From a virus: a stretch of 64,000 nt of DNA. The translations under genes were made by a program, and so were the position numbers. The notes beneath the pieces are model-generated. The model was not told where the DNA came from. It searched no databases and saw only the letters and a program-made list of their open reading frames with translations. Shown piece by piece: positions 6,001 to 23,912 of this stretch (position 1 is its first letter; every line of letters begins with the position of its first letter). The stretch lies in the IMG/VR virus record IMGVR_UViG_3300020448_000002, positions 62,001-126,000 of that record; one strand, written 5' to 3'.

Positions 6001-9000
6001 AGTCTGGTGTAGTTGCAAGATTGACTGCTACATCAACATATCAAGATCCTACAACTAATGAGTTTATTGGTCAGGTTAATATTTCAGAAGGATCTTCATT
6101 CTTTGGATTACTATTCAACAGAGTTACATCAATTACATATCCAAATATTGTTCTAGATGATATTTCATTATCAACAATTAGTGTTGTTGACTATACAGAC
6201 TACGTAACAGATATTGATTCTCAATTCCCTGCTAACGAATTTATAAGTCAAATTGTAATTCCTTACGATAATGCTTCTGGCAAGTTATCTGTAGGAGAGA
6301 AAATTAGAAATTATAAACTTGATTATGGTAATAATGTTGGAACATTTAATAGTGGTGAATCTGGTAAGTCTAGAAAACTATCATTTAAAGATAAGGTAGG
6401 AACTGGTCTATTTTCTACAGGTGATACAATAAGAACTAGAGATACTAAAGCAGAAGTAATTGGATTTAATTTCTCAGGTAATACAATATATCTTGGTAAG
6501 ATTGGTAGATCACTAAGAGGTGGTGCTGACTATCATCAATTTAACTTCTCTGGTAGTGCTCAATTAGATACTTCAATTAAGAAATTTGGAGATTCATCAT
6601 TACAACTTGATTTAGCAACAAGTGATTATATTCAAATTCCTGCATCATCTGAATTTACTCGTGGTACAGGTGATTATACTATTGAATTCTGGGTTCGTTT
6701 AGATGCAGTATCATTAGCAGATACTAAGACTCTACTTGATATGAGAACAAGTGCTACTGAAGTTGCACTTAGAATTTACTTACAAGCAGCACAAGTTCGT
6801 GTTAATGTTAATGGTTCAGATATAGCAACTTCTGGTGGAAATGCTCTAAACAATAATGTTTGGTATCATCTTGTAATTCAAAGAACTGGAACTACTCTTA
6901 AGATTATATCTAATGGAGTTGAGATTGGAACTGGAACAGATAGTAGTAACTATACATTGGATAGACCAATCAGAATAGGTGCAGATTTATCTGGTCTTAA
7001 TCCTATAACTGCTCATATTGATGAGTTTAGATATTCTACAGTTTCACGTTACGATACATTACCATTTACTTCTCCTAATGGTATTTTCCAAGGAGATACT
7101 GATACTAAAGTATTATGTCACTTTGATGGTGCTGATGGTGCAACTAAGACTGAAGATTGGTCTGGTGGTGAATCATTTACTAAGGGTGAATATGTTAATA
7201 ATGATTCTATATTAACAACATATAGTTCAAATCCAACTGCTGCTCCTGTAGGATTTAATACTAAGAGTCACAGATATATTAACGCTGCAGATTTATTGTT
7301 AATGAACAAGGAATACCTTGCTCAAGAAACAGTTTATATTATGAAAGAAGTATTCCCTGCACATAGTGTTAAGGGTAGTGAAGTTGATTGTGAAGATGAT
7401 GTAAGAGATGTTGTTGATGCTATTGTAGAAGATTTACGTAATGGTAGTAATCATCATATGTGGAAAGCAGCTTCATACTATGTTAATAGAGAAGTCAATC
7501 CAATTCAAATTGTAAACGTAGAAGATGATGTCTCTATGACAGTCTATGTTTATGAAATATTAGATAAACTTGCTAAGTATATTGTTAATAATGTTCCTTG
7601 GAGTACTCAAGGTGATCATGGTGTAACACAAAAATTTGACACTTCTATTACATTTGATGGTTATACAACTCAAACATTAACTAAGTTTACACCAACAGCA
7701 ATCGACTATCATCCATCAATGGGTGACATGGAAATAACAGCTGCAAGTCATGGACTCGCGGCCCCTAGAACTATAACAGCAACAGACTCAGGATACACTG
7801 CTACCACTGGTGTTTTGACGATTCAATCTGTTGGGCACAGTCTAGAAACTGGGGACAGAATTAAGTTTGAACCTAATTCTATTACCATGACTTGTACTTG
7901 TGATGGTAATACAGTATCACAGAGTTATCCTAGAGATGATGATCCTGCAAACCAAGGCTGGTTGGAGGTATCAAAGATTGATAATGACAACTTTAGTGTA
8001 AATGTTGGAACATCTCCAACAGTCAACTTTACTGCAACTGCAGCAGATTATGATAGTAATACTGGTTTCTTAACTATGGACATTGGTGACAATGACCTAA
8101 GACCAGGCAGTAAGTATACTGTTTCTAACGCTGCATATAATCCTACTAGTGGTGTAATGACAGTAAGTATTGGTAACGATCAATATAATGTTATTGATGC
8201 TGATTACAGTCCTCTAAGTGGAGATTTAGAAATCTTTGTTATGTCACATAATCTAAAAACAGGACAGAAAGTTAAGATTGCTAATGATGGTCTTACATTC
8301 AGATGTTCTCAAGATGATTATGCTACTGATCACCCATATCCAAGAGCAACTGACCCTGCACGTAATACAGCATTAGAAGTTATTCATGTAACTGATACAT
8401 CATTCACTGTAAACGTTGGTAAGTCTCCTATAGTTACTTACGATGTTTCTAATGCAACATTCAATCCTAATACAGGTGATATGGAGTTGACTATTGGAAA
8501 TCATAGTTTGGCTTCAGGTACTTCTATTAGAATAGCAACTCAAAGTATTGGATTTACATGCACATATGGTGCAGGTGTTCACTACTATCCAAGACCTCTA
8601 ATTGATGAGCACGTTCCAACTAATGTAGCATACAATCCAACAACAGGTGTAGTAACATTTACTGTTACTCAAGGACATGGAATTAAGAATGGTGATAAAG
8701 TTAAGATTCCTGATTATACACTTACATTCACATGTGACAAAGATAATAATGCAACTGAACACAGATATCCTAGACCTTATGATCCTATTAGTGATAAATG
8801 GATTCCAGTAAGTAATGTTCAAACAACATCATTCGATGTTCAAGTATTAGATAATGCTCCTTCAACAAATACATCTACTCATACCTTTGTAAGTTTTACA
8901 GGTGTAATTCAACAGAAACGTGATAAATCATTTGAACAATCTGTTGCAATTACTGGTACAACTGGAACAACTATTACTCTTAATGTTGGTATTTCAAGTA

Positions 9001-12000
9001 ATACAACAACTCATACATATTCAACTTCTAAAGCAGGTGCTGTAATTACTGGTGGTAATTATAAGCATAAGTTTAGATCTGCAGTTGATAATGCTATAAC
9101 AGTAGAGCATGGATTATATGTTGGTGATAGAGTCATGTTTGATAGAGACTCACTAACATTTACATGTCTTGAAGATAGTAATGCTACTGAGCACACATAT
9201 CCAAGAATTACAGATCCTTATTATAATAAGTGGTTACCTATTTCTAATGTAACTCATACAACATTCGATGTTCAAGTATTGAGTTCTACCCCTTCTACTA
9301 ACCAAACTGCTCATACATTTGTTCGTGCTAAAGTTAATGGTTTAACAAGATCTGGTGAAACACTAAAACTTGCTAAAGATGCATTATCATTTACATGCTC
9401 ACAAGATAATGATGCTACTGTTCATTCTTATCCTAGAGTTGATGATTCTGTTTATAATACTGCTATTCCAATTTGGAGTAATGGTAGCACTAAGATGACT
9501 GCTCAAAGTGCAACTTATAATACTGCAGAAGGATTATTAATTATTACTATACTGAATCATGGTTTAACAGTTGGAACTGAAATTAGATTAGAAAATAATT
9601 CTCTTGTCTTTACATGTGCTAAAGATGGCAATAAAACAGAGCATTCATATCCAAGACCTAAAGATCCATATGCTGCTAGATGGTTAAGAATTAAAGCGGT
9701 TACTGATCATACATTCACAGTGTTTATTGGTGAAGCAAGTTCTACAGGTCAATTTGCTCATACATTTGTAAGAGCAGTTAAAGATGGTATTATCAAACGT
9801 GATAACACTGTTACTGTTAACGTTGGTGCTACTCCAACTAAGGCGTATACTCCATCTGCTGCAACTTATAATGCTAGTACTGGTGCTTTAGAATTAAATA
9901 TTGGATCACATAGTTATCCTGCTCCAACACAACATACACCAACTGATGTTGCTTACAATCCTGTTAGTGGTGTAATGACTCTGACTATTGCAGGTCATAA
10001 CTTCTCTAATGGTGAAAAAATTAAGATTGCTGATAATGGTATTAAATTAAGTTGTCCTTATGGTGGTGCAACTGGAACTGCTGCACAGAAAGATTATCCA
10101 CGTTCTACTGACCCAGTTAGCAATAAATGGATTCCAATATTCAACGTAACTACAGATACTTTTGATGTTCAAGTTTTAGATTCAACTCCTTCAACTAACG
10201 TTGATACTCATACATTTGTAAGTGCAGTTACTAACTGTGTTAGCAAGGCAAATTACACTGTTAAACTTGCTCCTGATTCATTACTAATGACATGTGATAT
10301 GGATAGTGGTGCTACTAAACATGTATATCCAAGATCTAATGTTGCTACTCATACTCCATCTACAGGTACAAGTTACAACCCAGTAACAGGTGCTCTTACA
10401 GTTTCAATTCCTACTGAATCATTTACTGCTAGTGCTGCAAATTATAATGTTACAACAGGTGCTTGTGTATTAACAATATCTCAGAATGCAGGATCATATA
10501 ATGTTACTGGTGCAACTTATTCACCTTCTGTTGGAACTTTAGTTCTTACACTTGGATCACATAATTTAACAACTAATGACAGAATTAAAATTACTCCAGA
10601 ATCACTTAGATTTACTTGTGATTATAATAATGATAATAATACAACTGTTCATCCTTATCCTCGTGCTGCAGGTGCATACAACTCAACAAATTCAAAAGCA
10701 GATTACGCTTATGATACATGGTTAGACATTAGTGCAGTTACAGGAACAACAATTACTGTAAACGTTAACGGTGGTCAAGGTGCTATTACTGATATTAGTA
10801 ACCATACATTTGTTGGTGCACTTGATGGTGCAGTTCAAGTTGGTCATGGTATCGTACCTGGCAATAAGGTTAAACTTGCTCCTAACTCACTAACATTTAC
10901 TTGCACATTAGATGGTAACTCTGCACAGAAATCTTATCCTAGAGCAACAGGTGCTAATACAACAAGTGGTGCTGACTATGCTTATGATAAGTGGCTCAGA
11001 GTTATGGATGTTGGAGATAATACAATAACTGTTAACTTGAATGGTGGTCAAGGTGCCATCTCAGATACATCAGCACATACATTTGTTTCTGCTACTGCTA
11101 ATGGTATTACCCTTGGACACGGTATGGTTGCTGGTACACCTATTAAGATCAAAGATGGTGGCGTAATATTCAGATGTGCTCATGATAATAATGCTACTTT
11201 ACATCCTTATCCTAGATCAACTGACCCTGCAAGTGATAAGTGGTTGTTTATTAAGAATGTAAGTGATACTCAATTTGAAGTTGATATTTTACAAGGAACA
11301 ACTCCTACAAATACTACAACACATACCTATGCAGGTTCTATTGATAATTGTATTGTTCAAGGAGATCCACTTGTTGCTCAAGCAATTCCGATTGATGCAG
11401 TTACAGGTAATACTATTACTATCAATGCTTTAGATGGATATACACCTTCATTTACACCAAACCATACTTTAGATTCTGTAGCAACATCTCAGTTTACACC
11501 AACTAATGCAGTTTACAATGGAACTACAGGTCTAATGACCATAACAGTTCAAACTGCTAACTTCCAACCTTCTACTGTTGCTTATAATGCGATAACTGGT
11601 GAGATGCAAATGACTATTGGAACTCATAGTTTGGCAGTTGGAGAAGAAATATTAATTGCTCCTAATTCACTAACATTTACTTGTGATTTTAATGGAGATG
11701 GAAATACTACAAATAAAACATATCCTAGAGCAACAGGTGCTGCAACTCCTAGCGGTGCAGACTTTGCTTACAATAATCAATTAGTAATTACAGACACCAC
11801 AGCAACAACTATTACTGTAAACGTAAATGGTGGTGGAGGAGCAATTACTGATACAACCAACCATGTATTTGTATCGGCATTAGCAGATGCAGTCAGTGTT
11901 TCACATGGAATCAAGAACGGTGAAAAAATTAAGATTGCTGATAATGGTATTACATTTACTTGTACTCATGATAGTAATGCTACAAACCATCCATATCCAA

Positions 12001-15000
12001 GAGTAACTGATCCTGCTAGTGGTAGATGGTTAGATGTTCATAACGTCACTAATACTACTTTCGATGTTCAAGTATTAGATGAAATTCCTTCTACAAATAC
12101 TACAACTCATACATTTGTTTCTGCTACAACTAATGCGATTACAAGAGCAATAATTTCAACTGGTGGTAACTATAAGCATAAGTTTATATCTGGTCTTACA
12201 AACGGTGTTAGAACTGGTGGTGACTATACTCATACATTTGTTTCTGCTACTTCTAACGGTATACATGTTGCAGGTGATTCAGTTTACATTGATACTAATT
12301 CACTAAGATTTACTTGTTCTCAAGATGATCATTTAACACAACATGATTATCCACGTCCTACTGATCCTGCAGCTAAGCATGTAATGGAAGTTAAGGCTAA
12401 AGATGATAATAGATTTGTAATTAACGTTGGTAAATCTCCACAAGACAAACGTTATGATCACTTATTTGTTAGTGGCGATGCTAATTCTATCACTAAGTCT
12501 AAGTATGTAATTACAAATTGTTCTGACGTTTACACAACTACAAACAACTTAATTGATATTCTTAGAGATACAATAACTCAAGCTGCTTTACCATCTCCTG
12601 TAGATCATCTTGCAACTATTACTGATCTTCTTCCAGTAGATGAATTTGTTGGTGGAACAATTCATTCATATCTTGAAGTACCATTCAAAATTACATATGA
12701 AGATGATGCATCAGAAATGGTATACACAGATAGAATTGATGTATTCAGTCGTTACAGATTCCGTGATGCTGCTAATTTAATTCGTCAAAATACAGGTGCT
12801 ATTGTAGATAAAGCATCTTATGATATGTTAATTCGCTACCCTGCTCTTTATCAGGATATGCCTAGAAACCAAGGTGGTACATCTACAGATGGAATCGAGC
12901 GTTGTAAGACTGACCTTACACAGGTTTGTGGTGGAGTTGCTAATGATATAGAAAATGGTGGTAATAAGAATGTTGTTACTGCTGCAGGATTCTACCTTGG
13001 TCAAAATAATGAAATTCAACATATTAGATTACAGTTACCACAATCAATATATGTTCATAACCGTTTAGTATACTACTTAAAGCAAGCAATAGATGGAAGT
13101 TTAACAACTGATAATACAGAAAATCTTATTGTTGGAGATTGGGGTATTACAAATGATGATAGTGTAACAACTTATGATGTATATGATGCATCTTATGACG
13201 CAGCAAGTGGTGATTTAGTGATGACTCTTGCATCAAATACTGGAACATTTAGTGTTAGTGGTGCAGTCTATAATCCAACATCAGGTGATTTAGTTCTTAC
13301 AATCGGAACTCATACTTTAACAACTAATGATAAGGTTGGAATTGCTGAGGAATCATTAGTATTCACTTGTGATTACAATGGTAATGGTAATCAAACTCAG
13401 AAGAGATATCCTAGATCATTTGGTGCTGGTACAACAAATGGTGCTGATTATGCATACAATCAATTCCTTGATATTACAGCAGTAAATCAATCTGGTGGAA
13501 CAATCACTGTTAACGTTAATGGTGGTCAAGGTGCTATTACAGATACCACAACTCATAACTTTGTTGTTACTCCATCTGCTACAAATGCAGTTACTGTTGG
13601 ACACGGATTTACTGCAGGAGATAGTTTACAGATTGCTAATGAGGGATTAACATTTACATGTTCAATGGACGGTAATGTTGCTAATAAAACATATCCTCGT
13701 GCAACTGATCCTGCATATGGTAAGTCACTTACAATTACAAATGCTACTGCTACAACAGTAACTGTTAATGTAGGAGCTTCTCCAGAAGTTAAGTATACTC
13801 CAACATTCGCAACATATACTGCTACAACTGGTGTATTAGTTCTTACTATTAGTAACCATAATTTAGAAGTTGGTCAACCAATTAAGATTAATCAAGGTGC
13901 ATTGAAGTTTACTTGTGCAATGGATGGAAATGAATCTATCAAATCTTATCCAAGAACTAGTGATCCATTCTACAACCAACCTATTGATATTACTGCAACT
14001 ACAGCAGATACTATTCAGTTAAACGTTGGGCAGAGTCCATTAGTTTTACACAACGTTTCTAATGCTACTTACGATCCTACTACAGGTGTAATGGTATTGA
14101 CAATAGGAGCTCATACTTTGACTGCAGGTACTAGCATTAAACTTGCTACTGAATCATTAGTCTTTACTTGCACATTAGATGGTAATACAATTCAGAAATC
14201 ATATCCTCGTGCTACTACTGCTAATACAGGAAGTGGTGCTGATTATGCATACGATACTGCAATCAATATTGATTCTGCAGATACAGCAGCAGGAACTATT
14301 ACTATCAACGTAAATGGTGGACAAGGTGCTATATCTGATACATCAGCACATACATTTGTTTCTGCTAATGCAGGTGCTGTAAGATCAGGTGGTGATTATG
14401 TTCATACATTCCATTCTGCAGAGACTGAATGTGTAATCTCAGGTGGTGAATATACTCACGTATGGGCAGGTGGTACTGCTACCGATGTAGTTAGTGTTAT
14501 CGGTGATTGTGCAGATGTTAAGAGTAATATCGAATCATTAATTAATACAGTTAATGATATTATTGCACCTACAGGTCTAGATTATGATACTGCAGGTAAT
14601 AGACTTTACTTTAACAGAGAACTTATTGCTTCAGATGTAACTTCTAGAATGTTAACTGAGTTTACATATCAAGCAGGTCCTACAACATACTTTGCATTCC
14701 AATTTGGTGGAACTAATATAACAGCAGCAGAATTCCAAGCAGATGTTGAGGTAGTTATTCAGAATCTAATATCTGATTTACAGACTGGTGGTAATAATAG
14801 TTCTATCAGGGCACTTGAAGAAACATATCTCAATGCAGATGGAACACTTCATAGAATTGAAGATATGCTTTTACCAACCGTTTATGGTATGGAAGTTCTT
14901 AAGGAAGCAGGTAGAGAAGCAATTAGAAATAACATATACAATGCATCAGAAAATATTCCTTTCGGTGGATATGTAACAAACGCTGCTCAAACACCTTTCA

Positions 15001-18000
15001 GAGATGATTTAGAGACTGTAGATATTGATCAAGTAATTGGAGATTGGAATAATCTTCTTGATCATGTAATTGAATTCTTCTCACCTGGCAAAAAAGAGGC
15101 TAGGAATGGTATGAAGAATATTCTTTATAATGTAAACTATTATAAGAATGAATTAAACAACCTTGTTAATACTCAGTTTGGTAATGGTGCTTGGGTTTAT
15201 AATGATTTTGTTGATGAGTTAGTTGGAAATATAGTTCAAGACTCTGTTACAACTCCTATAGATCATAAGACTACAGCAAGAAGACTAACTCTTACAGGTG
15301 TAAGTGGAGAATTTATAGTTGATCAAGTTATAACTGCTAATGGTGGTGGATACGCTAAGATTCTTGAATGGGATAGTAAAGATAGACATTTATATATCGG
15401 ACCTTTCCTTAGCGGTACAATTTCTGCAGGTGAAACTATTACTGGTAGCACTGCAGGTGCTGCGACTATTGCAACTGGAGGAGTTGGTATTCCATTTGAT
15501 TGGTATACACGACCATCAAACGTTGAAATTCTTAGAAATGCAAGATTAATTAGTTCTACTGTTCAAGATCAATTAATAGGTCAAAACGTTGGTTACAATT
15601 ATCCAGAAGATTTATCTAGTGGTAATACACTTACTGAAGTAACTATATCTACTGATAGTGCTGTTGCACCTGATAACGCAGTTACTGCTGATAAGATTGT
15701 TGCTTCAACTACTGTTGGTGAACATTTGTTGTTCAGAAATTATAGTTTAAGTGCATTTGAAACATTTGACGGTGGCACAGTTAGATTTGACTCATCAACA
15801 GAAACATTTGATACTGGACAAATAGGAACTACTGAATCACAGCAATTTACTTACTCTGTATTCTTAAAAGCAGGTGAGTATAGTAAAGTTCGTTTCGAGA
15901 TGGCTCTTGATAGAGATACTACTCAAAGACAGCAATTATTCTATGATATTGATTTAACAAATGGAACTACAGGTAGTATCTTCCAACCTCAAGGTGGTCT
16001 TACAGTAGATGCAACTGGAGTGATTCCTTATGGTGGAGGATGGTATAGAGCATACGGAACAATTACATGTTCATTTGGTTTCTCTCAACTTCGTCAACAA
16101 ATTCAAATTAAGAATGCTACTGGTCAAACTAGTTTTGCAGGTAATGCATCTGATGGTGTCTTTGCATGGGGTCTAAAACTTACTAAAGGAACTATTGATC
16201 CTTATGCTGCTACAAGTGGAGATGTATTCTACGCTGATACTGAATACAATATTAAGACATATACAATCGATAGATTAGAAGAATGGATGTATGATGCATT
16301 GAAAGATCAACTTGTTAATCCTTCTCCTAGTGCAGCGTTTACACCTTTCTTCAGCGATAGTGCATCTACTTATTATCATCCAGATTCAATTCAAAGATTA
16401 GTAAGATATAGTTTAGAAATTGTTCGTAATCAATTATTAAATAGCACTTACTATACTGATATTATTGTTCAGAATGGAATAACTGTTCCAACTAAAGATT
16501 ATGGAACATTCGACCTTCCAGTTGCTCTTGCAGGTGGTCTTGATGGTGCTGATTACTTATATGGTTTAGAAAGTGGATCATATGCTGAATTAGAGAAAGT
16601 TACTATAAACGAAGGTGAAGTTGTTCAAGTATATCAAAGATTCCGTATTGATAGTAATATTGTTGATGGTCCTTACTTCATGAATGAAGTTGTTCAAAAA
16701 CAAGGAGACTCAACTGTTACAGGTGTTGTATATGGATTCTATGAAGATGATAACTTTAAGTATCTTGATGTTGCAGTTACTGGTGGAACATTCGCAGTAT
16801 TAGATTATGTTGTTGGTGCAACTAATACAACAACTGCACAAATTAATGCTATTGAAGATAGAATACAAATCACTGATCTTGAAGGAGAATTTACTGATAA
16901 CATTCCATTCAAGGGATATGATACAGGTGAAACTGCAATCCCAACTGGATTCTTAAAAGCACAAGCTGCTGTTACTGACAATAGTGGTGGTAAATTAACT
17001 GTTGATACTGAAACTCTAATAGGTACATTTGAAACATCTGCTGTAATATATCCTGAGCAATCAAAATTATTCTTAGATGTTTCTAGGTATGAAGGATTAG
17101 ATGTATTGATTGGTTATAGAATTTCTTCTGCAGGGCATACAAGAATTGGTATTACAATTCAAAATAACAAGAACGTATTTACAGTTGGTAATAAACTCAA
17201 TAAGATTACTAACGGTGTTATTGATCCTAATAACTATGGTTATATTACTGAAGTTGATATTGATAATAATATTATTTACTACATCTTAGCAGCAGGATCT
17301 ATTACTAATGGTGATCAAGTTGGTGACTTTGGACCTGCACCTGATCCACTCAATCCATTAGGACACGCAGTAATTAATACTAAGTTAGATGTTGCAGGAG
17401 CTGCTAGTGCAGTAATTCAAGACATCAAAGATGTTGGTGTTAACAAACGATTCTATCTAACAAATGTAACAGGAACATTCAGTGGTAGAGATGGAATCTT
17501 TGGTAAGGATAATTATAAAGCATCAGTTATAACTAAGACTGATCTTAGAGGACGTGTTGAACGTGCATTCAGAGGATTTGATGGAACACAAACTAACTTT
17601 AAGTTAACCATCTCAAACGGAACCAAGTACTTCCCAGATCCTGCAGGACATATGTTGATCTTCATCAATGGTGTTCTACAACCACCAGGTTCAGCAAATG
17701 CTTATACAGCATTCTCAGATAACATCCAGTTTACTGAAGCACCTGATCTTGGAGCATCATTCACAGGATTCTATGTTGGTAAACTAAGACAATTAGATGA
17801 TATATCATTTGAGTTTGATTCATTACGTCAGTCATTCAACTTGAAACGTGACGATGTGTTCTACTCATTGACGCTGACTGATGGTGTTCAATCTTCTACA
17901 ATCTTACCAGAAAATAATATTATTGTTTCACTGAATGGTGTTATACAGGAACCAGGCGTTGGTTTTGAACTAGTTGGTTCTAGAATAATCTTCTCTGAAA

Positions 18001-18485
18001 TTCCTCGTGTAGGATCAACATTCGTTGCATTCTCATACGTTGGTTCTGAAGCAGACGTTGATGCTGCAGAAGTTGTACCACCAATAGAAGTGGGTGACTT
18101 CATTGACATCCAAGGTGAGACCGAAGATAGACAGGTTGCTGTTATCGAATCTTCTAACTCCTTGATTACATTTGATTATCTTGGATCTGTATTTGGACAG
18201 AATGCTTCAGCATCTGCTACTCTCACATCTGGAACTATTGATAGAGTTCAAGTAACATCTGGTGGATCTGGTTATACAACTAGACCAAATGTAAGAGTTG
18301 ACTCCATATCTGGATTCGATGGAAACATTCGTGCACTAGTTGGTGTTGCAGGTGTTGAAATTAGTAATGTTGGTTCTGGATATCAAAATCCTATAATCAA
18401 TGTTGAGACTTCAGTCCCAGATGACTGGACTGCTCCAGACTTAAGTCTATACGGAGAAGAGGGAGTTGACCCCGAAACCCCATAA
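3..18485 (+). CDS. giant virion structural protein, 5' end outside window
   Basis: The reading frame is already open at position 3, so the visible 6,160 residues are a C-terminal fragment. Residues below are counted from position 3. Seen in order: beta-propeller-like strands with a G-x-F/W pattern (to about 340); a laminin-G/concanavalin-like domain (about 350-555); glycine-rich GSGY modules (about 1156-1373); an INGV-type module (about 1700-1775); a second LamG-like domain (about 2175-2393); a helical GGN module (about 2416-2540); 15 FTC...YPR repeats (2563-4173); a second helical module (4173-4380); four more repeats (4390-4833); a third helical module (4836-5020); a carbohydrate-binding-like jelly roll (about 5256-5405); two more INGV modules; and a final GSGY module. 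The position next to gp8 and the fibre genes suggests a tail or baseplate fibre. LamG and jelly-roll folds often bind glycans, so host-surface contact is inferred. No T4 counterpart is recognised. The stop TAA is followed by a late promoter motif. Confidence 0.85.
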   Translation, partial: LAKLSATGVKDWEKTLKSTDGQQEVEFERILIDGQDIYVAGHNKPNASILEAYNPDVILCKYTQAENGLSATLQYQKAYAGISGSTRSDNISAIAKYSDTRFVLGGFTNTNSGNPFDAYIAVVDTLGNFAVKRKITSVNVSEKVTDLLVNGTDIYYTLEIATSPNATSVDTGIGKATVGTSAITLVWTKQLTNTLYSFMDTSLTVDEFSELYLTATTRLKADNTTKDGFWIGKLNTEGVFLWNYRYAVTGGYTVNVAKRTHIDIFGDLNIALNKYQNTDGELTVDVIKVGYNGIIKSQTNNKFNLNNVEGVTAHTLFPDSSGDVHVYGQTSWNRNELLIPFTSGATTDVTGHYTATFVGDGNSLQYDTSNGYAKLLGKDSTTPSTWVNSVIQVNGSDLTTKMTGDWTIEFMLFKDAANNNNTHSQTQQTLIAIGDATLSTGGLWLYYDIASGEMQLVVTANGTALNSASGSLQSTVTTMFADNTWQFVALTKSAGQFTAYVNGIQVLQGTIDNTAFQNQNLYIGNIPGKSGTLNQFRSNEQGQYHVDNLRVRNRAVTPTVPNDVTNYPIAGEFSEGFTWTDTSWFSTYTNKYDYIDYVGWGLKVDKNSDAARLGTQTVQTNTQVGFVRTAIAIQTGSELTVNNTGFGLAEAGFQNLDFDDADTTMTQDSDSLTYVQDVWSSRTATVPSPGSQKLRVTAVVKDRYYFKVTPTIKIDNIQELTLNQQFRFTTGTKLVLRSSSGSFINSGYIIRQNSVGNKIYLAVNNNAWSNDLNTGELSTEQFNEQSTYGIVGPIPADINELIFTFPLLNNTTPGTFDIDLNNFNHPEGGSNNLDELTNFKPYTDDDYSIRIDEVSGGSPYIVGSVVNINSGDISFNAAYTTAQIINLTGVLKITLVATLKKIIQVTGVANSDEVYIVTGNSHYLTEGEMVNIDGNPSQTVDSVVYDEYDGAFPVHTVVSPVEFTYKLPSAAITAPATSSGSVNIYVKSPVLKMYYGHQYLFDVSHSSMAGGNLSFSKDNLYKLEYSFNSIERVGTPGITGQGVANPTVKLKVDSDIVTNISYYFDPSRTGDDSPVIKASYLDVVNSPYVGNFTISSTSGATITRGADTFKFPLANEPEGIADVINTSYSTSSLKAVGSISDIRIVNGGGFYTRLPVVTTIQSSRQIERVQIDSPGTEYAVGVYNSVPIAGDGEGGFVSITVADGTDDEGVTIPGQIQSVVVTSPGKGYTTASIDVESISGILGAGLTGSGVDLNVVIPPAGTGASIFTKGTKVGKIKKLQNNNFGYDYPHDYTLRPEISFPINAQLTSTSILDSITVTDPGSGYSQAPTVVITGGGGANATAEASIKNGRLDDIIVKDPGSGYSSAPTVALRSSFNYVVNLDLGLLQFAFPHGIVNGSEVTLTVTDTGDGAEFPLAAGAIGRLNSTNTYYAIAGTANSLEENQLKIAITAANAALGDSISFVNAGTGRQTILTESFGGAATANVITSTFLEGELVYQGDSLDAATASGYVSTNQGWQVGPRIIKIVDYTGNFNANERITGVISKSSGVISDLKIARGVLEIGSITKTTGQFIDDIGKPSEIIQKIQDSYYYQDFSYAVKSAVSIGEWKEILLKNVHPASFKVFGELNLSDYGQIPNKETDFQITKAVELAREAIVPNIQSFSLVEPVYSQFNNSEVLFRQKRLTSSENILTSVVQRIDDISNEFDGVKTQFQLKVNGENVVANANQLMIILNGVAQTPETSFNIQGDSIVFSQPPQPPASIKYVNVTIEQITISVLEFTNISGIFPIKGNTMTGQTSGTRFTVTTVVGQTVQGFFVEGTAFLADELVSNSATGFIANYASVSTLSNLGLFVFGEQVSNLTGETAKVEAINLAGGSEAPLGQLRYGIGPSTASVEVVAAKTVSTDPDTAPVAGTFTVSGNYQIGSEIVTVTNITTNNDSVTLEITRGQLGTTAATQAEDGPVYATTVLVNDKLTLSKTTGTYQSTPGLFDLALNDVIIGAQSGVVARLTATSTYQDPTTNEFIGQVNISEGSSFFGLLFNRVTSITYPNIVLDDISLSTISVVDYTDYVTDIDSQFPANEFISQIVIPYDNASGKLSVGEKIRNYKLDYGNNVGTFNSGESGKSRKLSFKDKVGTGLFSTGDTIRTRDTKAEVIGFNFSGNTIYLGKIGRSLRGGADYHQFNFSGSAQLDTSIKKFGDSSLQLDLATSDYIQIPASSEFTRGTGDYTIEFWVRLDAVSLADTKTLLDMRTSATEVALRIYLQAAQVRVNVNGSDIATSGGNALNNNVWYHLVIQRTGTTLKIISNGVEIGTGTDSSNYTLDRPIRIGADLSGLNPITAHIDEFRYSTVSRYDTLPFTSPNGIFQGDTDTKVLCHFDGADGATKTEDWSGGESFTKGEYVNNDSILTTYSSNPTAAPVGFNTKSHRYINAADLLLMNKEYLAQETVYIMKEVFPAHSVKGSEVDCEDDVRDVVDAIVEDLRNGSNHHMWKAASYYVNREVNPIQIVNVEDDVSMTVYVYEILDKLAKYIVNNVPWSTQGDHGVTQKFDTSITFDGYTTQTLTKFTPTAIDYHPSMGDMEITAASHGLAAPRTITATDSGYTATTGVLTIQSVGHSLETGDRIKFEPNSITMTCTCDGNTVSQSYPRDDDPANQGWLEVSKIDNDNFSVNVGTSPTVNFTATAADYDSNTGFLTMDIGDNDLRPGSKYTVSNAAYNPTSGVMTVSIGNDQYNVIDADYSPLSGDLEIFVMSHNLKTGQKVKIANDGLTFRCSQDDYATDHPYPRATDPARNTALEVIHVTDTSFTVNVGKSPIVTYDVSNATFNPNTGDMELTIGNHSLASGTSIRIATQSIGFTCTYGAGVHYYPRPLIDEHVPTNVAYNPTTGVVTFTVTQGHGIKNGDKVKIPDYTLTFTCDKDNNATEHRYPRPYDPISDKWIPVSNVQTTSFDVQVLDNAPSTNTSTHTFVSFTGVIQQKRDKSFEQSVAITGTTGTTITLNVGISSNTTTHTYSTSKAGAVITGGNYKHKFRSAVDNAITVEHGLYVGDRVMFDRDSLTFTCLEDSNATEHTYPRITDPYYNKWLPISNVTHTTFDVQVLSSTPSTNQTAHTFVRAKVNGLTRSGETLKLAKDALSFTCSQDNDATVHSYPRVDDSVYNTAIPIWSNGSTKMTAQSATYNTAEGLLIITILNHGLTVGTEIRLENNSLVFTCAKDGNKTEHSYPRPKDPYAARWLRIKAVTDHTFTVFIGEASSTGQFAHTFVRAVKDGIIKRDNTVTVNVGATPTKAYTPSAATYNASTGALELNIGSHSYPAPTQHTPTDVAYNPVSGVMTLTIAGHNFSNGEKIKIADNGIKLSCPYGGATGTAAQKDYPRSTDPVSNKWIPIFNVTTDTFDVQVLDSTPSTNVDTHTFVSAVTNCVSKANYTVKLAPDSLLMTCDMDSGATKHVYPRSNVATHTPSTGTSYNPVTGALTVSIPTESFTASAANYNVTTGACVLTISQNAGSYNVTGATYSPSVGTLVLTLGSHNLTTNDRIKITPESLRFTCDYNNDNNTTVHPYPRAAGAYNSTNSKADYAYDTWLDISAVTGTTITVNVNGGQGAITDISNHTFVGALDGAVQVGHGIVPGNKVKLAPNSLTFTCTLDGNSAQKSYPRATGANTTSGADYAYDKWLRVMDVGDNTITVNLNGGQGAISDTSAHTFVSATANGITLGHGMVAGTPIKIKDGGVIFRCAHDNNATLHPYPRSTDPASDKWLFIKNVSDTQFEVDILQGTTPTNTTTHTYAGSIDNCIVQGDPLVAQAIPIDAVTGNTITINALDGYTPSFTPNHTLDSVATSQFTPTNAVYNGTTGLMTITVQTANFQPSTVAYNAITGEMQMTIGTHSLAVGEEILIAPNSLTFTCDFNGDGNTTNKTYPRATGAATPSGADFAYNNQLVITDTTATTITVNVNGGGGAITDTTNHVFVSALADAVSVSHGIKNGEKIKIADNGITFTCTHDSNATNHPYPRVTDPASGRWLDVHNVTNTTFDVQVLDEIPSTNTTTHTFVSATTNAITRAIISTGGNYKHKFISGLTNGVRTGGDYTHTFVSATSNGIHVAGDSVYIDTNSLRFTCSQDDHLTQHDYPRPTDPAAKHVMEVKAKDDNRFVINVGKSPQDKRYDHLFVSGDANSITKSKYVITNCSDVYTTTNNLIDILRDTITQAALPSPVDHLATITDLLPVDEFVGGTIHSYLEVPFKITYEDDASEMVYTDRIDVFSRYRFRDAANLIRQNTGAIVDKASYDMLIRYPALYQDMPRNQGGTSTDGIERCKTDLTQVCGGVANDIENGGNKNVVTAAGFYLGQNNEIQHIRLQLPQSIYVHNRLVYYLKQAIDGSLTTDNTENLIVGDWGITNDDSVTTYDVYDASYDAASGDLVMTLASNTGTFSVSGAVYNPTSGDLVLTIGTHTLTTNDKVGIAEESLVFTCDYNGNGNQTQKRYPRSFGAGTTNGADYAYNQFLDITAVNQSGGTITVNVNGGQGAITDTTTHNFVVTPSATNAVTVGHGFTAGDSLQIANEGLTFTCSMDGNVANKTYPRATDPAYGKSLTITNATATTVTVNVGASPEVKYTPTFATYTATTGVLVLTISNHNLEVGQPIKINQGALKFTCAMDGNESIKSYPRTSDPFYNQPIDITATTADTIQLNVGQSPLVLHNVSNATYDPTTGVMVLTIGAHTLTAGTSIKLATESLVFTCTLDGNTIQKSYPRATTANTGSGADYAYDTAINIDSADTAAGTITINVNGGQGAISDTSAHTFVSANAGAVRSGGDYVHTFHSAETECVISGGEYTHVWAGGTATDVVSVIGDCADVKSNIESLINTVNDIIAPTGLDYDTAGNRLYFNRELIASDVTSRMLTEFTYQAGPTTYFAFQFGGTNITAAEFQADVEVVIQNLISDLQTGGNNSSIRALEETYLNADGTLHRIEDMLLPTVYGMEVLKEAGREAIRNNIYNASENIPFGGYVTNAAQTPFRDDLETVDIDQVIGDWNNLLDHVIEFFSPGKKEARNGMKNILYNVNYYKNELNNLVNTQFGNGAWVYNDFVDELVGNIVQDSVTTPIDHKTTARRLTLTGVSGEFIVDQVITANGGGYAKILEWDSKDRHLYIGPFLSGTISAGETITGSTAGAATIATGGVGIPFDWYTRPSNVEILRNARLISSTVQDQLIGQNVGYNYPEDLSSGNTLTEVTISTDSAVAPDNAVTADKIVASTTVGEHLLFRNYSLSAFETFDGGTVRFDSSTETFDTGQIGTTESQQFTYSVFLKAGEYSKVRFEMALDRDTTQRQQLFYDIDLTNGTTGSIFQPQGGLTVDATGVIPYGGGWYRAYGTITCSFGFSQLRQQIQIKNATGQTSFAGNASDGVFAWGLKLTKGTIDPYAATSGDVFYADTEYNIKTYTIDRLEEWMYDALKDQLVNPSPSAAFTPFFSDSASTYYHPDSIQRLVRYSLEIVRNQLLNSTYYTDIIVQNGITVPTKDYGTFDLPVALAGGLDGADYLYGLESGSYAELEKVTINEGEVVQVYQRFRIDSNIVDGPYFMNEVVQKQGDSTVTGVVYGFYEDDNFKYLDVAVTGGTFAVLDYVVGATNTTTAQINAIEDRIQITDLEGEFTDNIPFKGYDTGETAIPTGFLKAQAAVTDNSGGKLTVDTETLIGTFETSAVIYPEQSKLFLDVSRYEGLDVLIGYRISSAGHTRIGITIQNNKNVFTVGNKLNKITNGVIDPNNYGYITEVDIDNNIIYYILAAGSITNGDQVGDFGPAPDPLNPLGHAVINTKLDVAGAASAVIQDIKDVGVNKRFYLTNVTGTFSGRDGIFGKDNYKASVITKTDLRGRVERAFRGFDGTQTNFKLTISNGTKYFPDPAGHMLIFINGVLQPPGSANAYTAFSDNIQFTEAPDLGASFTGFYVGKLRQLDDISFEFDSLRQSFNLKRDDVFYSLTLTDGVQSSTILPENNIIVSLNGVIQEPGVGFELVGSRIIFSEIPRVGSTFVAFSYVGSEADVDAAEVVPPIEVGDFIDIQGETEDRQVAVIESSNSLITFDYLGSVFGQNASASATLTSGTIDRVQVTSGGSGYTTRPNVRVDSISGFDGNIRALVGVAGVEISNVGSGYQNPIINVETSVPDDWTAPDLSLYGEEGVDPETP
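7690..12520 (+). repeat. array A: 15 protein-coding FTC...YPR repeats
   Basis: Within the giant protein, a unit of roughly 90-110 residues recurs 15 times. Each unit has a Y/A-N-P-T-T-G-V-M strand, a G/S-H-S/G-L turn, a F-T-C strand, a D/N-rich loop, then Y-P-R followed by D-P or a G-A-D-Y-A-Y variant, and usually a final H-T-F-V strand. One cysteine is kept in nearly every copy. Copies differ enough in DNA that this looks like old duplication with continued divergence. Two nearly matching stretches, near 9049 and 12160 (both encoding GG-N-Y-K-H-K-F), suggest some recent exchange. Confidence 0.8.
13170..14490 (+). repeat. array B: four further FTC...YPR repeats
   Basis: Four more copies of the same unit as array A, separated from it by a helical module of about 200 residues. 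Two of the four carry the longer variant in which Y-P-R is followed by a small-residue linker and G-A-D-Y-A-Y. The array ends in H-T-F and G-G-E-Y-T-H-V strands before the third helical module. Confidence 0.8.
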
Positions 18486-18510: not shown

Positions 18511-19737
18511 ATGGCTAAACAAACGATAGGTCTTGGATCTGCTGCTAACGATAATACAGGTGACACTCTTCGAGCAGGTGGTGATAAGGTAAACGACAAT
18601 TTTAGTGAGATCTATACTGCTCTTGGAAACGGAAGTAACCTGACAGTAACTCTTGCAAACCCTGCTGTTAATCAGGTGTTGCGTTATAATGGTTCAACTT
18701 TTATTCCTTCTGACTATACACAGTTAACTTCTGCTCTTGACGTAAATAGTAATTCTATAATTTCTTCTTCAAACGGTAATATCTCTCTTGCTCCTAATGG
18801 AACTGGTAATGTAACTATATCTCACGGAAGTATTACTAATACATTTAATGGCACAGATGGAACTATAGATCTTCCAACAACAATAAAATATAAAAACGAA
18901 TATACTTCTCTTGGTGCATCTCCTTTACCTGCAACATATCCTGGTTATTTCTTTACTGTAGATGGTGATGATAATCCATATGTAAACATCAATATAACTG
19001 CAGGTGGTGTTGGTGATGCTAGAGCAAAAGTATTAACAGAGTATTCTTCTCTTGGTTTAGTTGGAGACGTAGATGTAGTATCAAGTGCTCCTACTAATGG
19101 ACAAGTATTAAAATGGAATACTTCAAGTAGTAAGTGGTTACCTGCTGATGATATAGCGGGTGCAGGATCACAAAACTTATGGGAATCTATTGTTGCTGAT
19201 ACAGGAACAACTACTGCTGATTCTGATACTGATTCTTTAACAATATCAGGTGGAACAGATATTGCAACTGCTATTACTGGTGATACAGTAACGATTAATT
19301 ATACTGGAACTCCTGTAACAACATTTGCTGCTTTAACTGATACTGACTTATCAGGAATAGTTAAAGGTGATTCAATTTATTGGAATAATACTGACTGGGT
19401 TGTATCTAGAAGTCCAGTTATTTGGTGGAACTTAAACTCTAGTGGTGCATCTGATTACACCTTCTCTGGTCCTGGTTTTACTGGTGCTGTAAATGACCCA
19501 ACTCTTTATGTTTATAGAGGGTTTACTTACATCTTTGATAACTCTGTTCAAGGTGGTGCTCACCCATTCAGAATTCAAAGTACACAGGGTTTAACTGGAA
19601 CTCCATATGTGGCAGGTCAGTCAGGTAGTGGATCTAATATTCTTTATTGGACAGTTCCGTTAGATGCTCCTGCAACTCTTTATTATCAATGTACACTTCA
19701 TTCTGCTATGAATGGAACAATCAACGTAGCGGTATAA
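18511..19737 (+). CDS. virion structural protein with C-terminal cupredoxin-like domain
   Basis: This 408-residue protein begins with a T4-like marine phage signature (residues 1-45, with G-L-G-S-A-A-N-D-N-T-G-D-T-L-R and D-N-F-S-E-I-Y), seen in many tail-associated proteins. The middle is low-complexity beta-rich sequence. Residues about 310-408 look like a cupredoxin sandwich: a hydrophobic strand pattern, His351 in an A-H-P-F context, and Cys394-x-x-His397-x-x-Met400 near the C-terminus. That is the ligand order of a type 1 copper site (His, Cys, His, Met). Copper binding is inference; the Cys-to-Met spacing is one or two residues shorter than in plastocyanin. It lies between the giant protein and another structural gene, so a tail or fibre accessory role is likely. 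The ATG follows GAGAGGA. Confidence 0.75.
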   Translation: MAKQTIGLGSAANDNTGDTLRAGGDKVNDNFSEIYTALGNGSNLTVTLANPAVNQVLRYNGSTFIPSDYTQLTSALDVNSNSIISSSNGNISLAPNGTGNVTISHGSITNTFNGTDGTIDLPTTIKYKNEYTSLGASPLPATYPGYFFTVDGDDNPYVNINITAGGVGDARAKVLTEYSSLGLVGDVDVVSSAPTNGQVLKWNTSSSKWLPADDIAGAGSQNLWESIVADTGTTTADSDTDSLTISGGTDIATAITGDTVTINYTGTPVTTFAALTDTDLSGIVKGDSIYWNNTDWVVSRSPVIWWNLNSSGASDYTFSGPGFTGAVNDPTLYVYRGFTYIFDNSVQGGAHPFRIQSTQGLTGTPYVAGQSGSGSNILYWTVPLDAPATLYYQCTLHSAMNGTINVAV

Positions 19738-19742
19738 TATAA

Positions 19743-22700
19743 ATGGCAAGAACGGTTCCTGGTTCTGGTGCTGTCATTGAACCAATTTTCGATGAGATTT
19801 TTGGTGTTCGTGCGGTAGAAGTCACAGATGGTGGAAGTGGATACTCTCAAGCAGATCCACCTCGTTTGACAATATCTGGTTGTGGAACCCCAGACGAAGA
19901 AGCGTTATTATATCCTATTATTGATTCTGACTCAGGAAAAATTATACACGTTAGAGTTCTGAGTAGAGGTAGAGGATATGATCCATTAAGATTACAGATC
20001 ATTCCAGAACAAGAAACTCCTAATGTTGTAACGTCATTTGATGTAAAAAGAATATTTCAATCACATCCTAATAGTCCTACTACAGCAACATTTACAGATG
20101 ATAGACTCAGAATAGTATCAGATAATCATCCTAAACCTTCTCAACATATTTTAGCAGAAAGAGAACCTGGTGGTTCTTCAGTAGTTGTAGATAGATCTTT
20201 TGATCAAACATTTATCTATAGAGGCGGTAAAGATGTACCTCATCCCGATGCTGCTAATAGACAATATCAAGGTGATAAAGCCATGGGTATCATGGCAAAT
20301 GGTGTTTTACTTCATACACCTGAGTGGGGACAAGATGGTAATCCACCACCAGGATTTGCTATTGATGCTGTAAAGTATCCTTATATTAAAAACAATAATG
20401 CATATGATGCAGTAATAGATAATCAGGTTTACTATTATCAAACAAATAAACTTAGAAACGAATGGAATTTAGATAACGGAGTATTTGATTGGGGTAGAAT
20501 AAGACAGTTTGTTTGGCAAGTTAAAACTGAGCATGATAATATTTTAATAGAATTAGGTAATTTAGATCAGACTATAGGTTCTGTTGAAGTAGGTAGAATT
20601 GTTGACTGTATTTCATCTACTGCAAAGGGTGAAGTAGCAAAAATTGTTAAAGATAATTTAGGTAATCCAACAAAAATATATTTAAGAACTCTTACTGGTG
20701 TTCCTTTCCAAGAGAATGATGTTTGTTTAGGTGCTAACGGATTTCAATTTAAAGTTCAAGGTATTCCAACAACATTCCCTAATGGTATATTCTATATTGA
20801 GTTTGGAGAAGAAGCACATGAGTTTGGTGCATTTACACCAGGTGTATTTTATTTTGCTCCAGAAGGAATTAAAGTTCAAAGAAATTATTTGATTATTTGG
20901 GATCAAAGTGATTCATCAAATAATACAGGTGGAATGCAACATCCAATGCAGTTTAGCACGACTGCTGATGGAACTTTGAATGGTGGAACTCTTTATTATA
21001 ATAGTACTGGTGTTACACAAGCACCTGCGGCTGATTATGAAAATGAATATCAAGCATTATTCTTAATGAATGCTGATGAAAATAGTAAAATTTATTATCA
21101 TTGTAAGTTCCATCGTTATATGTCTGGGTATCAGGGTGATGAAGGTTATATGGAACTTGCGTCAGATGTAGATCCTGACCCAATGGTCAATACATATTAT
21201 TTTAAAAATTATTATCAATCAGATGCTAATGATCCAAATACTATTGATTATAGTAGACATGTAGATGGTCATTCTAAAATTTTAGGTATGTCCTTTGATG
21301 GATATCCTATCTACGGTCCTTGGGGTTATAATTCTAGTGGTGCAGTTGCTAGAGAAGTATCAGGATATAGATTAAAAACTACTGCTGAGTTACCAGGTAA
21401 TCGTCCTCAAGTTAATACAGTTTCTAATGTAACATACACAGTAACTGTATCTAATAATTTATTTAATTTTGATGGTAGTAGACCTGCATTTTTAACATTA
21501 GAAAGAGGTAAGACATATATCTTTAATCAAGATGATGCTTCAAATGATAGTCTATTCTTATTTGTTGGAACATCTGAGGATGGATGGCATGTAGGTTCAC
21601 CTCCTGTTATTGGAGATACATCATATCTTCTAGCAGGTGATCATGTTAAGTATTATATTGATGGTGCTGAGACTACTTACAATACTTACATTTCTGCTTT
21701 CAATACAGCATCACAAAGAGAAGTTAGATTTCATGTTCCTGTAAATGCTCCTATAGCATTATACCTCTTTGCATATTCACAATCAGGTGTAGGAATAAGA
21801 TGTGTTGTTGAGGGATATGTACTTGGAGATTTGACTGATGATTATATTCATGATTCAACTGTTGGAAGTCTTGATGCTTATAATGGTAAGTTCGGTCCTA
21901 CTCCAGAGTATCCTAATGGAACTTATGCATATTATATGACTGAGGATAGTTCTTCAGTTCCCACTTATCCTTATGCTATAGGAGATGCATTCTATGGAAC
22001 TCCATTGTTTGAAGGTGATACAGTTCCTGCACAAGTAGAAATTTTCCCTGCAGGTGCTCAGGGTGATGTTGTTTTAAACGCTAGTGGTCAAATAGCATAT
22101 GTTAAAATGACCCAGTTTGGTGATAATTACTTTGGTCCTGCACAAGCAAAGATTTTAGGTGGTCAAGGAACAGGTGCGTTAGCAAGTCCAATTGTACAAA
22201 CAGTTACTGGTTTATCATTACTATCAACAGGTAGAGAGTATGCTACTCCTCCAACACTTATATTTGAAGGTGGAGGTGGTGGTGTAGGTGCTGAGGGTGC
22301 TGCTGAGATTGATACCTTTGGTAAAGTTACTGCAATTAATATTGTTGATGAAGGTGAATTCTATCAAGAACCTCCTTATATTTTAATTACAGGTGGTGGT
22401 GGAATTGGTGCTAAAGCAGTTGCTAGAATTGATCAAGGTGTCATAGTTGGTATTGATATTACAGATTCTGGTTCTGGTTATATTAATCCACCAAATATTG
22501 TATTTACTAAACTTGTTAACTTAAAACGTAAGACAAGAGCAAGACAGTCTTACAACTCTTCTGCAATTTATTTAACAGGTCTTGTAAAAGATTTAGCAGC
22601 ATCAGACACAGAAATATTCACTGACACAACTACAGGTTTTCCTGGTTCTGGATCTCTTATTGTTAATACTGAAACCATTACATACACTGGTAAATCAACT

Positions 22701-23912
22701 GGTAAGTTCTTCGGTCTAACAAGAGGTGTAAACTTTAACTATGACCAGAGAATTATATTAGATGCAACTCAGAATAATCAGCAAGACGTATCCACATATA
22801 ATTTTAATGTTGGTGATAGAGTAATTCGTAGAATAGATAATGCAAATAATAAAATTGCAAAGGTATATGACTGGAATCCAAATAGTAGAGAACTTCTAGT
22901 AACATTTGAAGTTGATGAATTAGCGTTCATCGATGGTGGTATTCCATCTACTTTAGATGCTATTGTGCAGTTTGATGGAGGTGTTGCTGCTAGTGCATCC
23001 AATGCTTTCAATCCTCATCAAATTACCTTTGAAGCAAACTCAACTATTATTACTTTGACTGATCCTATAGGATCAATCTTAGATACTAAGTTTGTTGATA
23101 CTGCAGAAAACGCAGGAGCTGGTGATGGAATTCCAGACTTGTTTAATACAGGTACTGATTATGAGAGTCAGATATCACTTGATGGTGGTATTTACAATTC
23201 ATTATATGGTATTGAAGAGACTCAAGGTGGAACTAACACAACTCTATTTGCAGTTGCCGATCAAATAAAAGATGGTTCTATTCCGTTCAAATATGCAACT
23301 GTAGAAGTTGCAGGAACATTGACTGATGGTGTAGATCACGTTGCAAAATTAAATGTATATGTAGATCTAAATCAAGGTAACGGTCAGAACTATGTTGTTA
23401 ATGATCTTGTTACAGGTGATATATCAGGTGTAAGAGGAACTGTTCTTGGATGGGATCCTAATACTGGATTACTAGAAGTTGGTAACGTAGTTCCTTATAA
23501 TACTGGTAATATCAATATAGGTATTGCAGGTTACTTCTATGAGTTCTCTGCTAGAGAAACAGTTATTGATTTCATTGTTCAGAATCCAGGTACTAACTAT
23601 ACTGCACCTCCTTCGGTAACAGTAGAGAACATTGGTGATATACAAGCAACAGCAAGTGTTAACATGACTGCTGCAGGTGACCAAGTTGCTTCACTAACAA
23701 TCACAAACGGTGGTTATGGTATAGCTCAGAACATTGATGAAAGTTTTGTAACACATCCGACAGTTACATTTACTAATAATGCTAGTGATAGCACAGGATC
23801 TGGTGCGGTTGTTCAAGCCGTTCTTGGTGGTGAACGTATTGCAGGTAACACTGGTGCGAGTTATAGGATCAAGAGAATTGAATATCAAGCACAACTTCAG
23901 TCTAAGGAGTAG
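19743..23912 (+). CDS. virion structural protein with cupredoxin-like, split YHYH and GSGY domains
   Basis: The protein has 1,389 residues and starts 5 nt after the preceding stop. Residues 20-90 hold a GSGY-type module. Residues about 350-475 resemble a cupredoxin, with His400 (Q-H-P-M) and Cys454-x-x-His457-x-x-Met460. Residues about 495-550 match the first half of a YHYH domain (H-S-K-I-L-G, D-G-Y-P-I-Y-G-P). A second beta-sandwich without copper ligands follows (about 560-690), and then the second half of YHYH (L-D-A-Y-N-G-K-F, T-Y-A-Y-Y-M-T, Y-P-Y-A-I-G). GSGY/GGGG modules fill about 770-930. A module ending in L-T-R-G lies near 945-1000, and a W-D-P-N-T-G-L-L module near 1215-1265. A tail or baseplate-associated role is inferred from the neighbours; no T4 equivalent is recognised. 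Confidence 0.75.
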   Translation: MARTVPGSGAVIEPIFDEIFGVRAVEVTDGGSGYSQADPPRLTISGCGTPDEEALLYPIIDSDSGKIIHVRVLSRGRGYDPLRLQIIPEQETPNVVTSFDVKRIFQSHPNSPTTATFTDDRLRIVSDNHPKPSQHILAEREPGGSSVVVDRSFDQTFIYRGGKDVPHPDAANRQYQGDKAMGIMANGVLLHTPEWGQDGNPPPGFAIDAVKYPYIKNNNAYDAVIDNQVYYYQTNKLRNEWNLDNGVFDWGRIRQFVWQVKTEHDNILIELGNLDQTIGSVEVGRIVDCISSTAKGEVAKIVKDNLGNPTKIYLRTLTGVPFQENDVCLGANGFQFKVQGIPTTFPNGIFYIEFGEEAHEFGAFTPGVFYFAPEGIKVQRNYLIIWDQSDSSNNTGGMQHPMQFSTTADGTLNGGTLYYNSTGVTQAPAADYENEYQALFLMNADENSKIYYHCKFHRYMSGYQGDEGYMELASDVDPDPMVNTYYFKNYYQSDANDPNTIDYSRHVDGHSKILGMSFDGYPIYGPWGYNSSGAVAREVSGYRLKTTAELPGNRPQVNTVSNVTYTVTVSNNLFNFDGSRPAFLTLERGKTYIFNQDDASNDSLFLFVGTSEDGWHVGSPPVIGDTSYLLAGDHVKYYIDGAETTYNTYISAFNTASQREVRFHVPVNAPIALYLFAYSQSGVGIRCVVEGYVLGDLTDDYIHDSTVGSLDAYNGKFGPTPEYPNGTYAYYMTEDSSSVPTYPYAIGDAFYGTPLFEGDTVPAQVEIFPAGAQGDVVLNASGQIAYVKMTQFGDNYFGPAQAKILGGQGTGALASPIVQTVTGLSLLSTGREYATPPTLIFEGGGGGVGAEGAAEIDTFGKVTAINIVDEGEFYQEPPYILITGGGGIGAKAVARIDQGVIVGIDITDSGSGYINPPNIVFTKLVNLKRKTRARQSYNSSAIYLTGLVKDLAASDTEIFTDTTTGFPGSGSLIVNTETITYTGKSTGKFFGLTRGVNFNYDQRIILDATQNNQQDVSTYNFNVGDRVIRRIDNANNKIAKVYDWNPNSRELLVTFEVDELAFIDGGIPSTLDAIVQFDGGVAASASNAFNPHQITFEANSTIITLTDPIGSILDTKFVDTAENAGAGDGIPDLFNTGTDYESQISLDGGIYNSLYGIEETQGGTNTTLFAVADQIKDGSIPFKYATVEVAGTLTDGVDHVAKLNVYVDLNQGNGQNYVVNDLVTGDISGVRGTVLGWDPNTGLLEVGNVVPYNTGNINIGIAGYFYEFSARETVIDFIVQNPGTNYTAPPSVTVENIGDIQATASVNMTAAGDQVASLTITNGGYGIAQNIDESFVTHPTVTFTNNASDSTGSGAVVQAVLGGERIAGNTGASYRIKRIEYQAQLQSKE

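Follow-up and report, generated by a model that had tools for sequence, protein, structure and literature searches.

Two adjacent baseplate proteins of a marine T4-like cyanophage carry cupredoxin domains with a probable type 1 copper ligand set

The window analysed here is a stretch of 64,000 nucleotides that takes up positions 62001-126000 in a virus record 126,269 bases long. It encodes a gp9-like connector, a gp8-like wedge protein, neck proteins, the terminase, the sheath and the portal, and the nearest relatives of its proteins are found in the T4-like phages of Synechococcus and Prochlorococcus, mostly at 60-80% protein identity. Based on this gene content and these relatives, the source is a marine T4-like cyanophage. 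Two adjacent genes are of concern here, that of a 408-aa gp9-like baseplate wedge or tail-fibre connector (18511..19737) and that of a 1,389-aa baseplate wedge protein in which cupredoxin domains and a YHYH domain occur (19743..23912), both on the plus strand, as are all their features described below. In phage S-SM1 the counterpart of the wedge protein is T4-GC 399 and that of the adjoining gp9 is T4-GC 398. It is noted that upstream of the gp9 gene (window 93-18485) a giant protein of 6,130 aa is encoded, in which at least 17 spaced copies of a Cys motif, roughly L-x-F-T-C-x-x-D-x-N-x-T-x-x-x-Y-P-R, occur at aa about 2628-4737, with the open frame holding about 32 Cys and 100 His in all. The repeat is possibly a Cys/His or crosslinking repeat, and the S-SM1 gene standing in the place of this protein, T4-GC 969, has been detected in virions (PMC3037559).

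PHROG_677 ('baseplate wedge tail fiber protein connector') covers the length of the 408-aa protein with an E-value of 5e-191, the Pfam family T4_gp9_10_N matches its aa 3-137 with E 5e-10, and phmmer gives matches to the N-termini of T4 gp9 and gp10. The T4_gp9_10_N region and the PHROG_677 match place it among the T4 gp9-like connectors. Its C-terminal part, aa about 303-408 (19417..19734), is a cupredoxin domain, as seen by AlphaFold2, by Foldseek and by profile matches. The AlphaFold2 model of aa 301-408, calculated with 65 aligned relatives, is a compact beta-sandwich of nine strands with pLDDT 96.6 and pTM 0.88, and both the model and the Foldseek matches agree with the Greek-key beta-sandwich of cupredoxins. 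In the Foldseek search against the PDB each of the first 13 matches is a rusticyanin, a copper nitrite reductase or a pseudoazurin, the leading ones being rusticyanin, the three-domain copper nitrite reductase (2dv6), pseudoazurin and amicyanin, and the first 50 are nearly all copper proteins or multicopper oxidases; chains of factor V/VIII, which have cupredoxin-like A domains, are also among the matches. The Foldseek probability is 1.00 for rusticyanin, pseudoazurin and amicyanin, while the TM-scores to single-domain solved cupredoxins are moderate, about 0.45-0.56, which means that the fold class is clear but a close structural twin is absent.

Within this domain a His from an earlier strand and a Cys-x2-His-x2-Met loop near the C-terminus are found, as in the cupredoxins. 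The predicted N-terminal copper ligand is His351 (19561..19563), followed by Cys394 (19690..19692), His397 (19699..19701) and the predicted axial ligand Met400 (19708..19710). The protein contains three His, two Met and, in Cys394, a single Cys; among 54 distinct near-full-length relatives of the protein 50 have one Cys and four have two. The sequence-only reading had named these four residues and, in the wedge protein, His400, Cys454, His457 and Met460, and all eight stand exactly where it put them.

The relation to the blue copper proteins can also be detected in sequence. Two profiles of the phage domain, A1 with 13 members and A2 with 65 members, were run against the PDB. The matches of profile A1 include plastocyanin (2plt, E 4e-6), amicyanin (7e-5), rusticyanin, pseudoazurin and copper nitrite reductase; the top match of profile A2 is the copper nitrite reductase 9cck (E 1.4e-5), the C-terminal segment of which, YICTLHPWMKG, has the C-x2-H-x2-M spacing of the phage domains. 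By hhalign the phage family aligns to rusticyanin with E 4e-7, and the N-terminal ligand His stands in HPFRI preceded by G or A, which is comparable to GHSFDI of rusticyanin. Some members of the family reach Pfam Copper-bind with E up to 1.4e-4, and the two window proteins themselves match neither Copper-bind (PF00127) nor Cupredoxin_1 (PF13473) at the curated cut-off. The PDB searches with full-length podoviral carriers and with the wedge-protein profile gave nothing useful. Taken together, the sequence and fold relatedness of the first domain to the blue copper proteins is clear.

For the 1,389-aa protein the profile PHROG_708 ('baseplate wedge subunit') gives 2,317 bits over aa 1-1387, that is, over the full length, and Pfam YHYH gives E 4e-13. 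Its first cupredoxin domain, aa about 372-475 (20856..21167), carries the predicted ligands His400 (20940..20942) and the loop Cys454-x2-His457-x2-Met460 (21102..21122); in alignment A3 the His and Cys ligands are invariant and the Met is kept in at least 90%. Aligned by hhalign to the gp9-domain family alignment A2, this domain gives a probability of 96.9% and E 1.6e-10 with the H, C, H and M columns superposed, which assigns it to one family with the gp9 domain, the ligand columns being shared. It is directly adjoined by the YHYH core motif DGHSKILGMSFDGYPIY (aa 508-524, 21264..21314). A second cupredoxin-like domain, aa about 560-690 (21420..21812), found by an HMM match, is the third such domain of the locus and was absent from the sequence-only reading; it has no His/Cys/His set and in the domain tree clusters with sisters that are predicted to bear metal. 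The model of the wedge region is weak overall, with a mean pLDDT of 67.9 and pTM of 0.44; local pLDDT is about 70-85 in domain 1 and mostly >90 in domain 2, and the fold matches, which are those of the whole region and not of domain 1 by itself, are multi-cupredoxin proteins. It had been claimed that both ligand sets lie in cupredoxin-like strand patterns. This holds for the first protein, with its nine confidently modelled strands and its fold matches mostly to type 1 copper proteins, and is supported less directly for the second, through the superposed ligand columns and the lower local pLDDT.

It is noted that related domains show further variation. A domain of an ACG-2014d protein (L099:7300-7698) is a relative of wedge domain 2 in which the copper ligands are still there. 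In a relative of the wedge protein (L071:4551-4872) the loop reads C-x2-H-x2-Q, so that Gln stands at the axial position in place of Met, as it does in cupredoxins of the stellacyanin type. L244:2082-2459 and L263:4204-4581 represent a third type of cupredoxin that bears the ligands; in L244 it is an extra cupredoxin copy inserted in the wedge protein, which implies that the number of modules in this protein varies among phages.

In all six-frame fragments of at least 80 aa in the window, C-x2-H-x(2-5)-M is present only at the two ligand loops named above, and a search of the whole virus record gives three copies of the cupredoxin domain only. On shuffling, the full His...C-x2-H-x2-M pattern arises in 2 of 100,000 trials with the 408-aa protein and in 3 of 30,000 with the 1,389-aa protein. 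A recent duplication of the domain between the two neighbours was considered and is not supported, because on a quick tree of 88 columns, with many forks unresolved, wedge domain 1 groups by itself (13 rows, 99) at the end of a long branch and does not join the gp9 relatives.

In the first protein conservation of the four residues among homologues is complete, all of them being invariant in 82 of 82 aligned close relatives, and in the second it is nearly so (His/Cys/His in 67 of 67, Met in 64 of 65). The ligand His and Cys codons vary synonymously (CAT/CAC, TGT/TGC) with the residue fixed, and the residues between the ligands are variable. For a wider view, 404 distinct domain sequences were collected from marine phages, and in 324 of them all four columns can be read. 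In this collection, which is skewed to close relatives, the His/Cys/His set is wholly present in 286 sequences, wholly absent in 38, which include poorly aligned copies of wedge domain 2, and mixed in none; five more copies of wedge domain 2, outside the 324 and with a gap at the Met column, have the His without the Cys/His. After clustering at 50% identity, HCHM is found in 16 of 21 clusters. The axial position changes once from Met to Gln and once from Met to Ser, with no other changes. The first of these occurs naturally in phytocyanins such as stellacyanin.

On the domain tree, from which the ligand columns were left out, the ligand states need three changes: in the S-B05-type tail fibres, in wedge domain 2, and in one match with the ligand region unaligned. 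Both real losses have sisters with the full set (L315 for the former; L099 and L263 for the latter). In the S-B05-type clade (L271-L317 and L092) H has become F, C has become A and H has become V or T together, while the relative L315 keeps the full set. These replacements, apolar or small, are as expected if a buried, clustered metal site had been filled by packing. The S-B05-type cupredoxins can be regarded as a natural metal-free control. The fold persists without the site in two clades, so that the presence of the site in the others speaks for selection for the metal; by the same token, the metal is not indispensable to the fold. Chance occurrence of the motif is ruled out by the six-frame scan, the shuffling and the coupling of the ligands across the 324 sequences.

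The module is not confined to these two proteins. It occurs in cyanomyoviruses, cyanopodoviruses and pelagiphages, where besides the gp9 C-terminus and the wedge protein it is found in tail fibres and other virion proteins: in two copies in the tail spike of P-SSM2, in structural-region proteins of P-HM2, S-SCSM1, S-H34, P-TIM68 and ACG-2014j, in the T7-like cyanophages P-SCSP2 and P-GSP1, and in tail fibres of the Pelagibacter phages HTVC028P and EXVC032P. One podoviral query alone gives at least 599 matching stretches in IMG/VR, and the structure matches in BFVD are mostly cyanophage tail and virion proteins. A cellular origin was also considered and rejected on one scan of genome contigs. 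Rusticyanin-like and other cellular cupredoxins came up in it, and its sole match of the phage-like form with C-x2-H-x2-M, L319, is part of what resembles a structural protein of a phage. Note also that L319:3938-4261, a phage-type cupredoxin ending this structural-looking protein, is filed as a Euryarchaeota MAG; L319 is probably a phage contig in the bin.

We consider it fairly likely, judging from fold, homology, ligand conservation and the joint loss of the ligands, that in each of the two proteins a cupredoxin domain has the complete ligands of a type 1 (blue) copper site and that the metal is most likely copper. The earlier proposal of metal binding rather than chance is supported by the blue-copper kinship of the first domain, by the conservation in homologues and by the ligand set being present or absent together. 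Based on homology and co-loss, we infer that the four ligand side chains converge. In the site so formed, two His and one Cys would make the equatorial plane and Met would be the axial ligand, with a short loop of the amicyanin type, and each domain in the virion would hold one metal ion, most likely copper. In T4 there are 18 gp9 per virion; if this stoichiometry holds, the gp9-like protein would provide about 18 sites per particle, in addition to those of the wedge protein. The ion would tie the His-bearing strand to the ligand loop and may thereby rigidify a surface module at the baseplate/fibre junction during extracellular life and the first host contact. Homology, conservation and position make such a structural, bracing role the most likely one. 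The host cytosol, where the virion is assembled, has little free copper, which makes the occupancy of the site uncertain; metal loading would probably take place outside the host cytosol. The domains are probably structural or host-contact elements, and the tails of marine phages probably bear copper or a metal like it.

The foremost alternative is that a genuine site is occupied in vivo by a different ion, either zinc or a purely structural Cu(I), rather than being a redox-active blue copper. Copper is scarce and zinc available in the bacterial cytosol, and in vitro both Zn and Cu(I) can occupy type 1 sites, which favours this reading. So does the fact that the known tail metals are structural, such as the iron in the HxH sites of T4 gp37 (as cited in PMC11705849). 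Metal ions in tails are known for iron, which is taken as structural or, in the published 'Ferrojan horse' hypothesis on marine phage tails, as bait for host receptors (PMC11705849). By contrast, the Cys/His/His/Met set with its axial Met is the signature of the cupredoxins, and copper proteins make up nearly all of the closest solved relatives, so that we regard another ion as unlikely, though to be taken seriously.

It can also be supposed that the domain is a metal-free scaffold, a cupredoxin-derived Ig-like module for structure or adhesion, in which the four residues remain through shared descent or packing. Ig-like beta-sandwich repeats are plentiful in phage virions, and the S-B05-type tail fibres and wedge domain 2 retain the fold with the ligands gone, both of which would fit. 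If this were true, it would be expected that drift had left intermediates, but no sequence with one or two of H/C/H is found where all four columns align, and, with loss evidently tolerated, the full set still stands down to 24-40% identity. A scaffold of this kind is therefore quite unlikely.

Slightly more doubtful still is a working redox centre, exchanging electrons with components of the host surface or periplasm, or with the adjacent YHYH domain, and acting for instance as a contact trigger or sensor. The nearest relatives of the domain are electron carriers, and the wedge site stands directly before the YHYH domain, a predicted metal-dependent hydrolase (PMC7824862), so that a functional link between the two is conceivable. 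Against one dedicated redox partner stand the many unrelated carrier proteins and positions, including those in pelagiphages of non-photosynthetic hosts, and the variability of the residues between the ligands. A photosynthesis-linked role, as for phage petE, is likewise disfavoured by the pelagiphages. It is on the whole unlikely, though worth keeping in mind, that redox-active blue copper centres on the baseplates and fibres of marine tailed phages in general take part in infection, whether by contact sensing, by electron exchange with the host envelope or the YHYH domain, or by copper-dependent adsorption. Finally, by analogy with the iron hypothesis mentioned above, tail-bound copper might be recognised by host uptake receptors as bait, which the frequency of the module in tail fibres would suit, but this is very improbable because the ligands of cupredoxins largely shield the metal and a receptor candidate is absent.

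In the open-access literature searched, which takes in few of the subscription journals, no description turned up of a virion with a cupredoxin or type 1 copper site. Cupredoxins are well known and so is tail metal in the case of iron; what appears to be new is the placement of cupredoxins on phage baseplates and tails. If the preferred reading, with copper in the conserved sites, is true, cyanophages and pelagiphages, which are very common in the sea, would act as colloidal carriers of copper, and tail stability or infection could depend on the copper supply.

The phage domains have the fold, the four-ligand set, the ligand order and the C-terminal ligand loop in common with amicyanin, plastocyanin and rusticyanin, and the short C-x2-H-x2-M spacing of the loop is that of amicyanin, whereas the N-terminal ligand of the phage domain stands in GHPF rather than in PHN. 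Unlike the mononuclear cupredoxins, the phage version is built as one domain into structural proteins of the virion, has no known redox partner, and its copper is predicted. In the copper nitrite reductases (9cck, with CTLHPWM, and the three-domain 2dv6) the cupredoxin domain is fused to other domains as in the phage proteins, but those are enzymes with a type 2 copper site, of which the phage proteins show no sign. With T4 gp9 the 408-aa protein has the N-terminal region (Pfam T4_gp9_10_N) in common; T4 and its relatives, coliphage gp9/gp10 included, align to it only there (aa about 1-44 or 80), and the C-terminal cupredoxin is not seen in them at the sequence level. The YHYH domain (PF14240) of phage baseplate and tail proteins, predicted as a metal-dependent hydrolase with a Zn site in an analysis of jumbo phages (PMC7824862), is present in the wedge protein as a separate domain with its own motif, and the cupredoxin site lies outside it. 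T4 gp37 resembles what is proposed here in that a tail protein holds metal, with the difference that, as cited in PMC11705849, its iron is bound octahedrally by His only within a trimeric fibre, while the site predicted here is composed of Cys, His, His and Met inside one domain.
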